The notes beneath the pieces are model-generated. The model made no database searches. It was not told where the DNA came from and saw only the letters and a program-made list of their open reading frames with translations. From NCBI RefSeq assembly GCF_007845675.1, contig NZ_VOBR01000027.1:21031-77983 (forward strand): a stretch of 56,953 nucleotides of DNA, in the 5' to 3' direction. The stretch comes from Lentzea tibetensis. GTDB taxonomy: Bacteria; Actinomycetota; Actinomycetes; Mycobacteriales; Pseudonocardiaceae. The position numbers and the translations under genes were made by a program. Shown here piece by piece: positions 28,445 to 46,009 of the stretch. Position 1 is the stretch's first letter. Every line of letters begins with the position of its first letter.

Positions 28445-29046
28445 GTGAGCGCCGCCGCGTTCGTCCCCGCCGGGGCGAGCCTGGCGGCGCTCCGTCGTGC
28501 GGCGGTCGAGTGCCGTGGCTGTGACCTCTACCAGCACGCGGATCGGACCGTTTCGGCGAGGGACCGTCGCACGCGCGGATCGTCATGGTGGGCGAGCAGC
28601 CCGGTGATCGCGAGGACGTCGAAGGTCACCCGTTCGTCGGGCCCGCCGGCCGGCTGTTGGACAAGGCGCTGGACGAGGTCGGCATCGACCGCGGGCAGGT
28701 GTACCTGACGAACGCGGTCAAGCACTTCAAGTTCACCGAGCGCGGCAAGCGGCGCATCCACGCGCAGCCGAAGCGGTCCGAGGTCCTGGCCTGCCTGCCG
28801 TGGCTCTCCGCCGAGCTGGACGTGATCGAGCCGCGGCTGGTCGTGGTTCTGGGTGCCGTCGCGGCGAAAGCGCTGTTGGGGCCGAGCTTCAAGCTGACCG
28901 CTCACCGCGGTGAGGTGCTGCCGGGGGAGCACTACGACCTGATCGCGACCGTGCACCCGTCCGCCGTGCTGCGCGCACCGGAGCGGGACAAGGCCTACGC
29001 CGAGTTCGTCGCGGATCTCAGGGTCGTCAAGAAGGTCCGGGTGTAG
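28445..29046 (+). pseudogene. udgX: UdgX-type uracil-DNA glycosylase with a one-base frameshift
   Basis: Reading from GTG 28445 (SAAAFVPAG...LAALRRAAVECRGCDLY) gives the N-terminus of UdgX, including the CxxC of the iron-sulfur site. That frame then fails. From about 28552 a different frame continues with FGEGPSHARIVMVGEQPGD, EGHPFVGPAGRLLDKALDE, the UdgX-specific KRRIH loop (GKRRIHAQP) and the C-terminal VHPSAVLR, ending at 29046. One base is missing near TTTC at 28551-28554; restoring it would give the expected TVFGEGP. UdgX binds uracil-DNA covalently through the His of KRRIH. As written the gene is broken. Translation could restart at ATG 28585, but that product would lose two cluster cysteines. 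A sequencing error is possible. Confidence 0.85.
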
Positions 29047-29048
29047 GA

Positions 29049-29216
29049 CGACCCCCGGACTGCTTCCCCGCGCTAGGAGTAGCGGGGCCGAGCGGGACCA
29101 AGTGCTCGGAGTCCGGGGGTCGGGTGGCTGCCTGGTATTCACCAGGGGGTCACCGGTTGGTGGTCCTAGCGGACAGCCACCTCACGAGTCCCGTAGCTAT
29201 ACAACTGCGGACCACC
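29049..29216 (+). ncRNA. candidate structured RNA: two tandem three-way junctions
   Basis: Stem P1 has 13 perfect pairs (29049-29061 with 29110-29122) and encloses two adjacent hairpins: 29066-29087 (CGCTA-GGAG-TAGCG apex) and CCGAGC/GCTCGG (29088-29109). One base later, P4 (GTGGCTG 29124-29130 with CAGCCAC 29174-29180) encloses CCTGGT-ATTC-ACCAGG (29131-29146) and an 8-pair hairpin with loop GGTT (29147-29166). GGACCACC at 29209-29216 can pair perfectly with 29159-29166, competing with the last hairpin. P1 could serve partly as the udgX terminator, but that would not explain the rest. I do not recognise a known RNA class. Folding was by eye. Confidence 0.5.
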
Positions 29217-29397
29217 TCCTCTCATGTGTAAGGCGAACTTATGCGGTGATCACGGGCGTCGCAACGGAGTTTCGCCGAAAACGTATTCATCGGACCGTTA
29301 CCCACTCTTGACCCTGTGTGGGCCACGTCATACGCTGCGCAACTAGTACACATCCGATCTTTCGTTACCGCCGCCGCGGACACGAAGGGGTTGTGCA
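29217..29397. other. gene-free leader of the GH95-like gene
   Basis: Together with the structured segment before it, this completes a 351-base gap without a convincing gene. It contains a 40-codon open frame (29224-29346) with no ribosome binding site, which I do not believe, and the promoter at 29308-29336. Confidence 0.6.
29308..29336 (+). promoter_or_regulatory. housekeeping-type promoter of the GH95-like gene
   Basis: TTGACC - 17 bases - TACGCT is a near-consensus sigma-70/HrdB promoter. The expected start point near 29343 leaves a leader of about 55 bases before GTG 29398. Confidence 0.65.
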
Positions 29398-32250
29398 GTG
29401 GACCTCTCGCGGCGAGGGCTGCTCGGTGGCGTCATGGCGGGTGCGGCGTTGACCGCTCTACCGGTGAACGCGGAGGCGGCCCCCACGGATGTGGAGATCA
29501 CCGGTGGTGCGTCGATCAGGAACCGGATGCGCACCGACCAGGAGTGGTCGCGGTTCCTCGCCGGGCAGGACCTCGTCTGGCAGCGCGTGCCGCGCGCCTG
29601 GTACGAGGGTCCCTTCCTGGGCAACGGTTTCCTGGCCATGCAGGTCTACCGCGAGCCGGGTGCGAACGCGCTGCGGTTCACCGTCGACCACGCCAAGGTG
29701 CAGGACCACAGACCCGAGTTCGGCAACGAGTGGGGCGTGGCGCGGCTGCCCGTCGGACGGCTGCTGCTCACCCCGGTCGGCAAGATCACCGGGGTCGACC
29801 TGCGCCTCGACCTGTGGAACGCCGAGCTGCGCGGCACCGTGCTCACCGACAAGGGCGAGCTGGCCGTCCGCGCGTTCATCCACGCCCAGAAGTCGTTGCT
29901 GCTGCTGGACGTCCGGCCGACCTCGGGTGAGCGCGAGTTCAAGCTGGAGTACCAGGCGCTGGACGCGCTGAGCCCGCGCACCATCCGCGAGCCACCGCCC
30001 AAGACGTTCCCGCTCAACCCGAAGCCGACGACGCGCACCGAGAACGGCACGACGATCGTCACGCAGGAGATGGTCGCCGGCGGGCAGACCGCGACGGCGT
30101 ACTGGACGCGGAAACGGCACGGCCGCACGGACTTCGCGCTGTCCGTGACGCACACCTTCCCGGATCGGGCCGCGGACGCGATCGTCCGCGACACGGTGGC
30201 GCGGGCCCAGGCGACGCCGTCCGAGGTGCTGCGCCACCAGCACCAGAAGTGGTGGCACCGCTTCTACCGCGCGAGCTTCGTGTCCGTGCCGGACGCGCTG
30301 ATGCAGAGCTTCTACTGGATCCAGTTGTACAAGCTCGCGTCCGCGGCCCGCGCCGAGGCGCCGATCATGCCGACCACCGGGCCGTGGCTGGAGCCGACGC
30401 CGTGGCCTTCGGTGTGGTTCAACCTCAACGCGCAGCTCGAGTACTGGCCCGTCTACGGCGCCAACCATCTCGACCTCGACCCGATCCCGCGCACCATCTC
30501 GCAGAACCAGCAGATCCTCGTCGACGCGCTGCGCCCCGAGTTCCGCACCGACTCGATGGGCCTGCGCCGCAGTGCCGATCCAACGTTCCAGGACGCCGGG
30601 TTCGTCGGCTCGCCGCTGCACCCGTCGCCGGATCCCGAGCTGGGCAACCTGCCGTGGCTGCTGCACAACGCGTGGCTGTCCTACCGGCACACCATGGACG
30701 AGACGATCCTGCGCGACACGGTGTTCCCGGTGCTGCGCCGGTCCACCAACTACTACCTGCACTTCCTGCGCAAGGGCAACGACGGCAAGCTGCACCTGCT
30801 GCCGACCTACTCGCCCGAGTACGGCGTCGCGCCGGACTGCAACTTCGATCTCGGTCTGCTGCGCTGGAGCTGCCGCACGCTGCTGGACTCCGCGCGGATC
30901 CTGAAGATCAGCGACCCGCTCGCGCCCAAGTGGCAGGAAGTGCTCGACACGCTCGTCGACTACCCGGCCGACGCGAACGGGTTCATGATCGGCGCGGGCG
31001 TGCCGTTCGCCAAGTCGCACCGGCACTACTCGCACATGCTCGCCGTCTACCCGCTGCACCTGGTCAACTGGGAGCAGCCGCAGTCGCGCGACCTCATCGA
31101 GAAGTCGTTGCGGCACTGGCTGAGCTTCGAGGGATCGCTCCGCGGCTTCACGTTCACCGGCGCGGCGTCGATCGCGGCGCAGATGACGCGCGGCGACGAG
31201 GCGCTGCGGTACCTGCGCGAGTTCGTGGCGCGGTTCGCGCAGCCGAACACCATGTACTTCGAGGCCGGTCCGGTCATCGAGACGCCGTTGTCCGGCGCGA
31301 AGTCGTTGCAGGACATGCTGTGCCAGAGCTGGGGTGACGTGATCCGGATCTTCCCGGCCGTCCCGTCGGCCTGGAAGGACGTGGTGCTGCACGACTTCCG
31401 CACCGAGGGCGCGTTCCTCGTCAGCGCGGTGCGCAAGGAGGGCGTCACGCAGTTCGTGCGCGTGCGGTCCGAGGCCGGTGCGCCGTGCCGCGTCCGCACC
31501 GGGATCGCGGGCAAGCTGAAGGTGCACGGGTGCGCGCGCTGGCGGGTCGAGGGTGACGTGGTCGTGCTGGAGCTGCACCGCGGCCAGGAGGCCGTGATCC
31601 ACGCGGCGGGCGCGCACCCGGACTTCACCATCGCGCCGGTGAAGATCACCGAGCCCGCTCGTGCGTGGGGGCTGCCCGCGTTGCCGCCGGGCGGTGTCGC
31701 GGCACCGGTCGACATCACGGGGCTCTTCGACAACGACGGGTTGAGCAACGAGTTCACCAGCCGGGACGGCGACTTCGACGGCGCGGGCAACACCTACCCC
31801 GCCGCACAGGTGCCGCAGACCGGGGGAGTGACCGACGACGGCATCCCGTTCGAGTTCACCAACGGCGACGAGGCGAGCAAGAACAACGTCATCGCGGCTG
31901 GCCAGACCATCGCGATGCCCGCGGGCAGGTACGCGAAGCTGCACCTGCTGGCCGCCGCCGACACCGGCAACGTCGACGCACCCGGTGTCGCGACCTATGT
32001 GGACGGTACGACCGCGCCGATCCGCTTCGCCGTGACGGCATGGCGTTCGGGACCGCAGTTCGGTGAGAGCGAGCCGATCACCACGACGCTGATGCACACG
32101 CCGTCCGGGCCGCAGCAGGCGAAGGTCGCGATCTTCCACCAGGTGATCGGGCTCGACCCCGCGCGCGACCTCGCGTCCATCACGTTGCCGAAGCTGGCGG
32201 GTCCACGCCTGCACGTCTTCGGCATCACCTTGGAGAAAGCCAAGGCCTGA
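29398..32250 (+). CDS. Tat-exported GH95-like glycoside hydrolase with C-terminal beta domain
   Basis: A 950-residue protein (GTG 29398, AAGGGG 7 bases upstream) with a Tat signal (SRRGLLGG, cleavage about residue 28). The (alpha/alpha)6-barrel shows FNLNAQLEYWPVY, equivalent to the NxN...NYW motif of GH95 whose Asn residues help catalysis, and HRHYSHMLAVYPL, equivalent to HRHxSHLxxxYP. GH95 enzymes are alpha-L-fucosidases or alpha-L-galactosidases; sequences this divergent may have other exo-activities. From about residue 730 a beta-rich domain follows (VDITGLFDNDGLSNE...DGDFDGAGNTYPA), like carbohydrate-associated domains on secreted actinobacterial hydrolases. It starts a three-gene secreted-enzyme block. 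Confidence 0.8.
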   Translation: MDLSRRGLLGGVMAGAALTALPVNAEAAPTDVEITGGASIRNRMRTDQEWSRFLAGQDLVWQRVPRAWYEGPFLGNGFLAMQVYREPGANALRFTVDHAKVQDHRPEFGNEWGVARLPVGRLLLTPVGKITGVDLRLDLWNAELRGTVLTDKGELAVRAFIHAQKSLLLLDVRPTSGEREFKLEYQALDALSPRTIREPPPKTFPLNPKPTTRTENGTTIVTQEMVAGGQTATAYWTRKRHGRTDFALSVTHTFPDRAADAIVRDTVARAQATPSEVLRHQHQKWWHRFYRASFVSVPDALMQSFYWIQLYKLASAARAEAPIMPTTGPWLEPTPWPSVWFNLNAQLEYWPVYGANHLDLDPIPRTISQNQQILVDALRPEFRTDSMGLRRSADPTFQDAGFVGSPLHPSPDPELGNLPWLLHNAWLSYRHTMDETILRDTVFPVLRRSTNYYLHFLRKGNDGKLHLLPTYSPEYGVAPDCNFDLGLLRWSCRTLLDSARILKISDPLAPKWQEVLDTLVDYPADANGFMIGAGVPFAKSHRHYSHMLAVYPLHLVNWEQPQSRDLIEKSLRHWLSFEGSLRGFTFTGAASIAAQMTRGDEALRYLREFVARFAQPNTMYFEAGPVIETPLSGAKSLQDMLCQSWGDVIRIFPAVPSAWKDVVLHDFRTEGAFLVSAVRKEGVTQFVRVRSEAGAPCRVRTGIAGKLKVHGCARWRVEGDVVVLELHRGQEAVIHAAGAHPDFTIAPVKITEPARAWGLPALPPGGVAAPVDITGLFDNDGLSNEFTSRDGDFDGAGNTYPAAQVPQTGGVTDDGIPFEFTNGDEASKNNVIAAGQTIAMPAGRYAKLHLLAAADTGNVDAPGVATYVDGTTAPIRFAVTAWRSGPQFGESEPITTTLMHTPSGPQQAKVAIFHQVIGLDPARDLASITLPKLAGPRLHVFGITLEKAKA

Positions 32251-44734: not shown

Positions 44735-46009
44735 ATGCCTCTGACGGTCGCTGAACTGGCTCGTGACCTGCGGTTGCCGGTCCACGCGGGCGACCTGGCG
44801 CGCCGGATCGGCTGGGTGCACGGCACCGAGCTGGCCGACCCGACGCCGTTCCTCGAGGGCGGCGAGCTGCTGCTCACCACCGGACTCGCGCTGGATGACT
44901 TCGACGGTTACGTCGAACGCCTCGTGGCGGCGGGCGTGGTGGGGCTCGGGTTCGGGACGGGGCTGAGCCACGCGACCGTGCCCGAGTCGCTGATGTCGGC
45001 AGCGGAGGAGGCGGGGCTCGCGCTGCTGGAGGTGCCCCGCAAGGTGCCGTTCATCGCGATCAGCAAGGCCGTGTCGCGGGCACTCGCGAAGGACGACTAC
45101 GCCGCGCTGACCAGGACCAGCGAGGCGCAGCGCGCGTTGACCAGGGCCGCGGTGCGGTCGGACGGCGTCGCGGCGACCGTGCGCAGGCTGGGGCAGTGGG
45201 TCGACGGCTGGGTGGTGCTGCTCGACGCGGCGGGCGTCCAGACCCACGGAGCGCGGGTGCCGCCGCCGATGGGCCCGGAGATCGCCCGGCTGCGCGCGGC
45301 GGGCGGGCTCGCGAGCGCCGCGTTCGAGATCGACGGGCAGCACGTGTTCCTGCAGCTGCTCGGTTCCAAGGCGCGCGGCTTCCTCGCGGTGGGCACGCGG
45401 AGTCCGCTCGACCCGGCCGACCGCAGCATCGTGAACACCGCCGCCTCGCTGCTGGCGCTGGCACTCGCGCAGAGCGACGCGGTCGATGCCGCGCAACGGT
45501 CTTTGCGCACCGCCGAGTTCCGGCTGATGCTGGCCGGGCACCCCGGCCCGCCCGGACCGTTCCGCGTGTTCCTCACCGACGCGCCACCGGACGGCGACGT
45601 CTTCTGGGCGGAGGTCGGCGGGGACGTGGTCGTACTCGCCTCGTCGCTCGACGACTACATCGCCGCTTCGTCGATGACGACCGAGGTGGCCGCCGGCTAC
45701 CGGGAAGCCTTGCGCGCCAGGGATGCCCGCGTGCGGACGTTCGAGGACCTGGCCGGCGCCGGACTCATGTCGCGCGTGCGGGATCCCGCCGCGTTCGCCC
45801 AAGCGTTGTTGCGGCCGCTGGACGAGCAGACGCGCGAGTCGCTGCGGGTGTGGCTGGGCCAGCACGGCCAGTGGGACCCGGCCGCGGCACGACTCGGCGT
45901 GCACCGGCACACGCTGCGGAACCGGATCCGGCGCGCCGAGGAGCTGCTGGGCCGTTCGCTCGACTCGCCGGGCGCGCGGGCCGAGCTCTGGCTGGCGCTG
46001 AACGTCTAG
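44735..46009 (+). CDS. PucR-family transcriptional regulator
   Basis: A 424-residue protein from ATG 44735. The N-terminal PucR domain (PLTVAELARDLRLPVHAGDLARRIGWVHGTELADPTPFLEGGELLLTTG) is complete. The C-terminal HTH_30 is AARLGVHRHTLRNRIRRAEELLG (about 390-412). PucR-type proteins activate catabolic genes in response to the substrate. The divergent arrangement makes it the likely regulator of gabT-ALDH. Stops of this gene and the intradiol gene overlap at CTAG. Confidence 0.92.
   Translation: MPLTVAELARDLRLPVHAGDLARRIGWVHGTELADPTPFLEGGELLLTTGLALDDFDGYVERLVAAGVVGLGFGTGLSHATVPESLMSAAEEAGLALLEVPRKVPFIAISKAVSRALAKDDYAALTRTSEAQRALTRAAVRSDGVAATVRRLGQWVDGWVVLLDAAGVQTHGARVPPPMGPEIARLRAAGGLASAAFEIDGQHVFLQLLGSKARGFLAVGTRSPLDPADRSIVNTAASLLALALAQSDAVDAAQRSLRTAEFRLMLAGHPGPPGPFRVFLTDAPPDGDVFWAEVGGDVVVLASSLDDYIAASSMTTEVAAGYREALRARDARVRTFEDLAGAGLMSRVRDPAAFAQALLRPLDEQTRESLRVWLGQHGQWDPAAARLGVHRHTLRNRIRRAEELLGRSLDSPGARAELWLALNV

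Follow-up and report, generated by a model that had tools for sequence, protein, structure and literature searches.

A predicted micro-ORF within the fold of a minus-strand RF02471 (Ms_IGR-5) RNA of Lentzea tibetensis: a candidate for translation-controlled RNA folding

Short open reading frames (ORFs) within structured RNAs are known from dual-function small RNAs (sRNAs), such as SgrS/SgrT and RNAIII/hld, and from leader-peptide attenuators, such as trpL and ermCL. The RNA described here resembles both kinds in carrying a putative short ORF within a structured RNA, so placed that translation and folding would share bases. It differs from the attenuators in having no lineage-shared downstream gene in cis, and from both kinds in that its ORF threads a pseudoknot and is kept more strictly than the peptide. 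Ms1 and the 6S-like RNAs are comparable as structured sRNAs of Actinobacteria, and Ms1 is known to bind the RNA polymerase core (PMC4191392). However, no 6S or Ms1-type match was found in the Rfam scan, for which Rfam may hold no Ms1 model, Ms1 is listed apart from IGR-5 in PMC10454040, and the term IGR does not occur in the available text of the RIP-seq paper PMC11077062.

The closest described system is RF02471 (Ms_IGR-5) itself, an already known family of actinobacterial sRNAs whose function is not stated in the available literature passages on it. Its transcripts have been reported in S. lividans, with RNA-seq validation (PMC8079986), in S. avermitilis (PMC8780764) and in M. smegmatis (PMC10454040), and in M. 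abscessus and M. smegmatis its homologues were covered by ribosome-protected reads (PMC4974804). Such footprints are weak evidence of translation, since most E. coli ncRNAs show one, as the available part of the same paper indicates. The term IGR-5 does not occur in the available text of PMC3828370, and the small ORF named near Rv0813c in PMC11133741 is a different one. In the passages on RF02471 or IGR-5 covered, no ORF or pseudoknot was described, and the peptide strings of the micro-ORF gave one unrelated match in the literature. The present locus is like the family in its full-length match above the gathering score, with transcripts reported in Streptomyces and Mycobacterium, and departs from it in that the cmscan alignment shows no pseudoknot and, in place of helix P1, has the 5′ GGUGGU paired with GCUGCC. 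What appears to be new here, as read from sequence comparison, is an extended 16S-complementary element, a micro-ORF, a pseudoknot and a reach beyond the phylum in the family name.

In the window (the whole stretch of 56,953 nucleotides of Lentzea tibetensis DNA that was analysed), the RNA segment is flanked by a uracil-DNA-glycosylase gene (udgX; PF03167; 28453-29046, plus strand), whose stop codon occupies 29044-29046, and by a GH95 gene (29398-32250). When the whole window was compared with 4227 Rfam models at gathering score, the sole match was RF02471 at 29229-29043 on the minus strand, with 99.5 bits against a gathering score of 45 (cmscan) and an alignment covering positions 1-184 of the 184 of the model, on the model's own strand. 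It is practically certain that the segment encodes an RF02471 RNA on the minus strand, as an RNA gene of ~187 nt (29043..29229) with its 5′ end at about 29229, so the “unannotated” RNA of an earlier note has an Rfam identity. As for udgX, it is apparently split over two reading frames near 28550, by a sequencing error or as a pseudogene: in the ORF that opens with ATG 28585, the UDG domain match begins at residue 2 and at profile position 13, and a plausible N-terminal part reads in a different frame from that ORF.

The earlier note had proposed a structured RNA on the plus strand, of which the structure proved real and the strand wrong. The folding energy was -100.1 kcal/mol (z -5.24) on the plus strand and -92.3 kcal/mol (z -4.15) on the minus strand, neither being reached by any of 200 shuffles; the plus strand folds better, and thermodynamics does not decide the strand. 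The minus strand is assigned because of the Rfam match, the recurrent promoter, the micro-ORF and the wobble bias of helices P2 and P3, which are described below. A plus-strand riboswitch-like leader or udgX 3′ UTR would agree with the good folding of that strand and with a stem that begins three bases past the udgX stop codon, but it is highly improbable, because the Rfam match, the promoter, the ORF and the wobble bias of P2 all point to the minus strand and the neighbours differ in other lineages; the 3′ UTR put forward in the earlier note is unsupported as the main identity. The best reading, to which a probability of roughly 0.45 is given, is a free-standing translated RNA whose fold the ribosome would open.

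The distribution of the RNA was followed in three phylum groups. RF02471 matched in 49 of 61 relatives, including all 25 genomes of the genus (own genome counted) and 5 of 12 in the rest of the family, in 57 of the 296 genomes of a phylum draw (26 over the gathering score), and in 17/24, 18/149 and 2/3 genomes of three deep classes; none of 14 well-known control genomes matched. A model of the 5′ part made here (R1), which was built from ORF-carrying sequences and whose loci lean towards ORF carriers, matched in 119 of the same 296 genomes, mostly once per genome and twice in four. A second R1 match in the window (45677-45704, plus strand, 18.6 bits, E 0.0016) is probably due to chance. The RNA was also carried by two contigs of the pattern scan, from metagenome-assembled genomes (MAGs) labelled Zixibacteria (L097) and Spirochaetia (L114), with DNA of 48 and 51.5% G+C, respectively. 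R1 matched in 47 of 132 genomes of the phylum of the former and in 12 of 247 of the phylum of the latter, once in each genome, the weakest Spirochaetia-group match (L232) looking false. The Rfam gathering score was passed by five of the eight Zixibacteria-group loci scanned (L233, L234, L236, L237 and L097) and by none of eight Spirochaetia-group loci, the best of which reached 40.8 bits and one of which (L227) gave no match. The G+C of the loci of these two groups spans 0.28 to 0.66, an argument against contamination. Phage or plasmid cargo was considered and rejected, with no phage match, no exact pattern match in viral_contigs and one partial match in the plasmid set (NZ_LN868939.1:133583-133645, Nocardia farcinica, 33% of the query); that record, of 2.66 Mb, is large for a plasmid.

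The genes surrounding the RNA differ among its carriers. When flanking ORFs of at least 130 residues within 1.5 kb were grouped over 118 named loci, the largest groups held 28 and 27 loci, corresponding to a YgfZ-like gene upstream and a convergent FABP-like gene downstream in mycobacteria and some others, whereas Amycolatopsis relatives had a Nei-like neighbour and streptomycetes a citrate-synthase-like gene more than 1 kb downstream (all names being read from the proteins); neighbours varied in the Zixibacteria and Spirochaetia phyla. Since no neighbour was conserved across lineages among these 118 loci and the other-phylum loci compared, the RNA is taken as free-standing. The largest cluster of co-oriented downstream ORFs comprised 14 of the 118 loci, at a median distance of 497 bases, and may consist of antisense ORFs. 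With udgX convergent and no co-oriented downstream gene common to lineages, the shared gene that would mark a cis-acting leader was not found and the riboswitch-like leader of the earlier note is not supported; no known riboswitch model matched in the Rfam scan of the window. Its other suggestion, a candidate trans-acting RNA, fits an RNA that is conserved, has a promoter-like sequence of its own and covaries strongly.

The putative promoter comprises TTGCGA (29264-29259), a 17-base spacer and TAAGTT (29241-29236), spanning 29236..29264 on the minus strand. TTG, 16-19 bases and TANNNT were found at this position in 147 of 197 loci; shuffles gave 0.78 on average and 3 at most. This set lacks L086, L112, L128, L169 and L176, in which the pattern was not found, as well as L102, L137, L193 and L212, and the first of two hits was used for L059 and L115. 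A simple consensus scan of the window segment returned neither a promoter nor a terminator, so that the promoter is apparent by comparison alone. At the opposite end, folding placed a 3′ terminal stem, P4 (29122-29110 with 29061-29049; 29049..29122, minus strand), with inner hairpins, which is possibly a terminator; a scan of the P4 region found no terminator-like T run. It corresponds to the 13-pair P1 of the earlier note (29049-29061 with 29110-29122), whose two abutting inner hairpins, one with a GGAG loop, are present in the sequence, as is the second structured part beyond it. The GGAG loop is thus located in the terminal stem, the inner part of which is variable among relatives, both in length and in sequence. 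On the udgX side, this stem begins three bases past the stop codon, and it might also end the udgX transcript, serving both convergent genes, udgX and the RNA gene, as a terminator that works in two directions.

Near its 5′ end, the RNA carries an extended Shine-Dalgarno (SD) sequence of 15 bases (29209..29223, minus strand), found by comparison, that is complementary, G-U pairs counted, to the 16-base sequence GGAUCACCUCCUUUCU, which we take to be the 16S rRNA tail. In 195 of the 197 loci, 15 or 16 contiguous bases of the 5′ element could pair with this tail when G-U was counted, and runs of 7-16 were obtained with Watson-Crick pairs only. The first 15 bases of the assumed tail occur once in the own genome, at a putative 16S site, and the 9.36 Mb genome has 11 copies of AGGAGGTGRTCC, against four of the backward control. 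These comparisons support an extended SD with the capacity to pair along almost all of the 16S tail, which would make it a landing site of unusual length for ribosomes. The earlier note had pointed out that ACCTCCTCTC resembles the anti-SD end of 16S rRNA; this resemblance turned out to be the mirror image of the arrangement: the minus-strand RNA is itself complementary to that end, and GGACCACC and ACCTCCTC on the plus strand are the complement of its SD element.

Such pairing could also serve a ribosome trap or 16S-tail binder, in which the RNA would hold 30S subunits or terminating ribosomes, as a brake or a sensor of free ribosomes, through the extended SD and a second SD-like GAGGUG nine bases ahead of the stop codon, the ORF merely keeping ribosomes placed. 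This reading, which is judged unlikely, is favoured by the 195 of 197 loci that pair with 15-16 tail bases, by GAGGTG ahead of the stop codon in nearly all loci (120 of 175 having been retrieved by a pattern that fixes it) and by the ribosome-protected reads over homologues (PMC4974804). However, a strict start-to-stop ORF exceeds what such putative binding needs, and two loci (L287 and L288) have GGAGGTA at the second site.

The translated RNA preferred here would be read from a micro-ORF of 12 codons with a TTG start and the stop TAG (29166..29204, minus strand), identified by comparison of relatives. In actinomycetes, a start codon 10-13 bases past GGAGG opens a 12-codon ORF. TTG (99 loci), ATG (42) or GTG (21) stood exactly 12 codons ahead of the stop in 162 of 175 loci, and the stops, all at one place, were TAG in 145, TGA in 18 and TAA in 12; L102 was excluded from this count for its two pattern hits, and 120 of the 175 loci had been retrieved by a pattern that fixes codons 7-11 and leaves start and stop free. 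None of 120 distinct micro-ORFs had an in-frame stop, compared with 24 and 118 of the 120 in the other two frames and with 34.8 expected to have one when codons 2-7 were shuffled; codons 2-4 vary freely. Under a common rule across groups, by which the start lies 6-17 bases past GGAGG and the stop close to the P3 site, an ORF beginning with ATG, GTG or TTG was present in 145/145 distinct actinomycete sequences (22.1 in shuffles), in 18/19 of the Zixibacteria group (2.1), in 11/11 of the Spirochaetia group (1.1) and in 19/39 of the mostly deep actinobacterial classes (5.0). When CTG, ATT, ATC and ATA were also allowed, the counts were 19/19 (6.5), 11/11 (2.8) and 38/39 (10.6) for the last three; beyond the common starts, the deep classes need CTG, ATT or ATC, and L048 has no start of any kind. 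Identical stretches were counted once, groups follow locus numbers, “deep classes” includes one actinomycete (L046), and four loci were excluded: L232, which was judged false, L219 and L233, which lie close to a contig end, and L114, a duplicate of L220. Among twenty further deep loci chosen from the R1 search, 18 were located by script, with an ORF in 17 and a common start in 16; in L287 and L288, which the script missed, and L290, which it misplaced, the ORF was open when the printed sequences were read.

ATT or ATC at the start position was observed in L187, L188, L189, L202, L203, L207, L209, L211 and L051 (5′ part), all of deep actinobacterial classes, where the start adjoins a very strong SD. 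Sensitivity to initiation factor 3 would be expected of such starts, a hint that the RNA has some part in start-codon stringency.

By comparison, therefore, a conserved ORF with a putative ribosome-binding site is present, as in dual-function sRNAs, and the micro-ORF is probably translated. That the ORF is a by-product of the conserved sequence of a non-coding sRNA is improbable: the conservation of its 3′ half as RNA speaks for it, but the ORF occurs in 145/145 sequences against 22.1 expected from shuffles, not one of 120 ORFs has an in-frame stop where the other frames have stops in 24 and 118, three kinds of stop codon share one place, and the frame is kept although the ORF ranges from 10 to 17 codons between groups. 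It is likewise doubtful that the RNA is a mini-mRNA with a 10-17 residue peptide as its product and a structure that only tunes translation or stability. In most groups the peptide ends in T/P-x-E-V-A/T-x-x, its E-V is kept in actinomycetes and in the Zixibacteria and Spirochaetia groups, and start and stop codons interchange, as such a product would allow. On the other hand, codons 2-4 vary freely, and the GAG GTG codons are almost invariant in DNA and sit in P2 (120 of the 175 loci coming from the pattern that fixes them); since the 3′ half of the ORF is conserved as RNA (P2), its peptide conservation is not independent. Moreover, L201, L205, L206, L208 and L213 use another frame over the conserved GGAGGTGGC, giving peptides that end in GGGSS or GGGSR, and their ORF is still open from start to stop; the ORF is thus kept more strictly than its peptide.

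In a free-standing translated RNA with a ribosome-opened fold, ORF and structure would be interlaced. The helices lie on the minus strand. P1 joins 29225..29228, the last pair being A-C in the window, with 29183..29186; P2 joins 29173..29181, within the ORF, with 29123..29131; P3 joins 29165..29170, which includes the stop codon, with 29141..29146; and a pseudoknot joins GGGACU in codons 5-6 of the ORF (29187..29192) with GGUCCC in the loop of the 3′ hairpin (29094..29099). All four were tested column by column on two alignments, A1 (the window and 38 loci hand-picked out of L001-L056; 39 sequences) and A2 (the window and 69 of 124 candidates, near-duplicates removed and deep classes omitted; 70 sequences). 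Cells changed on both sides numbered 95 in A1 (29.9 in shuffles) and 90 in A2 (39.7), values reached by none of 500 shuffles in either case, and paired cells fell from 88-90% to 30-43% when the partners were slid by 1-3 columns. The covariation among relatives that the earlier note had proposed to look for is therefore strong, for the minus-strand P1, pseudoknot, P2 and P3. Wobble cells of A2, read on the minus strand, numbered 70 G-U and 1 A-C in P2 and 74 and 33 in P3; the pseudoknot had 18 and 22, P1 had 1 and 8, and the totals were 163 and 64; P1 and the pseudoknot taken alone showed no bias towards the minus strand.

In the pseudoknot, GGAC of the ORF pairs with GUCC of the loop, and GGAU in the ORF goes with AUCC in 16 of 18 loci, L092 and L152 retaining GUCC; many of the 16 are related, so they do not represent 16 events. 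L045 combines CGAC in the ORF with GUCG in the loop, and the corresponding pairs of the Spirochaetia group are GACC and GGUC, in 6/6 loci, and GACU and AGUC, in 4/5. A free-search permutation test (175 distinct of 184 usable loci, 13 having been dropped because P2 was not located) gave a mean of 14.08 against 12.84 (z 8.5); the column-wise covariation tests are cleaner. Taken from these sequence comparisons, the pseudoknot between codons 5-6 and the 3′ hairpin loop very probably exists. It is not essential to every member, since it is not evident in the L201 group, whose ORF lacks GGAC though the 5′ GGUCC is kept (L213 has a GUCC in the 3′ hairpin), and none was seen in the Zixibacteria group, which has a plain T-run hairpin instead. 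A start-codon hairpin between the 5′ GUCC and the GGAC of the ORF was rejected: 91.7% of its cells pair, with no double-sided changes and with shuffles equalling it.

A further pairing concerns the SD itself. The complementarity described in the earlier note between GGACCACC (29209-29216) and GGTGGTCC (29159-29166), with its continuation, is present in the sequence, and on the minus strand it places GGACCACC at 29159..29166, able to mask the SD (29209-29216), as comparison and folding indicate. The minimum-energy fold of the window RNA (-95.3) has the SD paired with GGACCACC, which follows the stop codon; an energy of -87.5 was obtained for the conserved fold, with the pseudoknot uncounted. 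Runs of pairing with GGAGGTGGTCC, counted from the base after the stop codon with G-U allowed, were at least 7 pairs long in 14/17 same-genus loci against 43/180 others and at least 9 in 10/17 against 6/180, the window's own run being 7, or 8 if the final stop-codon base is included. From these counts, the competing helix is enriched in this lineage; as a family-wide feature it was rejected, given the 43/180 outside the genus at 7 or more pairs, and it may be a local refinement. The switch proposed in the earlier note is plausible in another form, in which strands of the SD and the ORF are shared between helices and, in this lineage, one more helix can mask the SD.

Taken together, promoter, SD, ORF, helices, pseudoknot, spread and the lack of a lineage-wide neighbour are supported by comparison, and a design shared for the most part by relatives in other phyla suggests that a translating ribosome controls the folding of the RNA. 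In such a mechanism, 30S subunits would load on the extended SD and translate the micro-ORF, and the ribosome would have to open the three helices P1-P3 and the pseudoknot, each of which has its 5′ strand in the ORF or beside the SD; because these bases are shared, translation and folding would be mutually exclusive. Without a ribosome, the RNA would close into the knotted fold. The SD could, in this lineage, also be masked by an additional helix, formed by GGUGGUCC and GGACCACC. The two forms might differ in stability or in the strands exposed, such as the 3′ arm of P2, which is rich in C. Since no neighbouring gene is shared across lineages, the output would be exerted in trans; regulation of something in trans is only weakly indicated. 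That translation-controlled folding is the purpose of the RNA is put forward tentatively, at somewhat less than an even chance.

More tentative still is the possibility that RNAs of this class, found in at least three phyla and usually in one copy per genome where present, are free-standing trans-acting sensors of ribosome availability, initiation or termination, with a core formed by a landing site for nearly the whole 16S tail and an ORF of 10-17 codons that is tied, in most groups, by a pseudoknot to the 3′ hairpin. In sum, an sRNA family filed without a function, as far as the available literature passages tell, has by comparison a conserved micro-ORF, an extended 16S-complementary SD, a pseudoknot and a cross-phylum reach, and is a candidate for a new means by which cells sense or use ribosomes.
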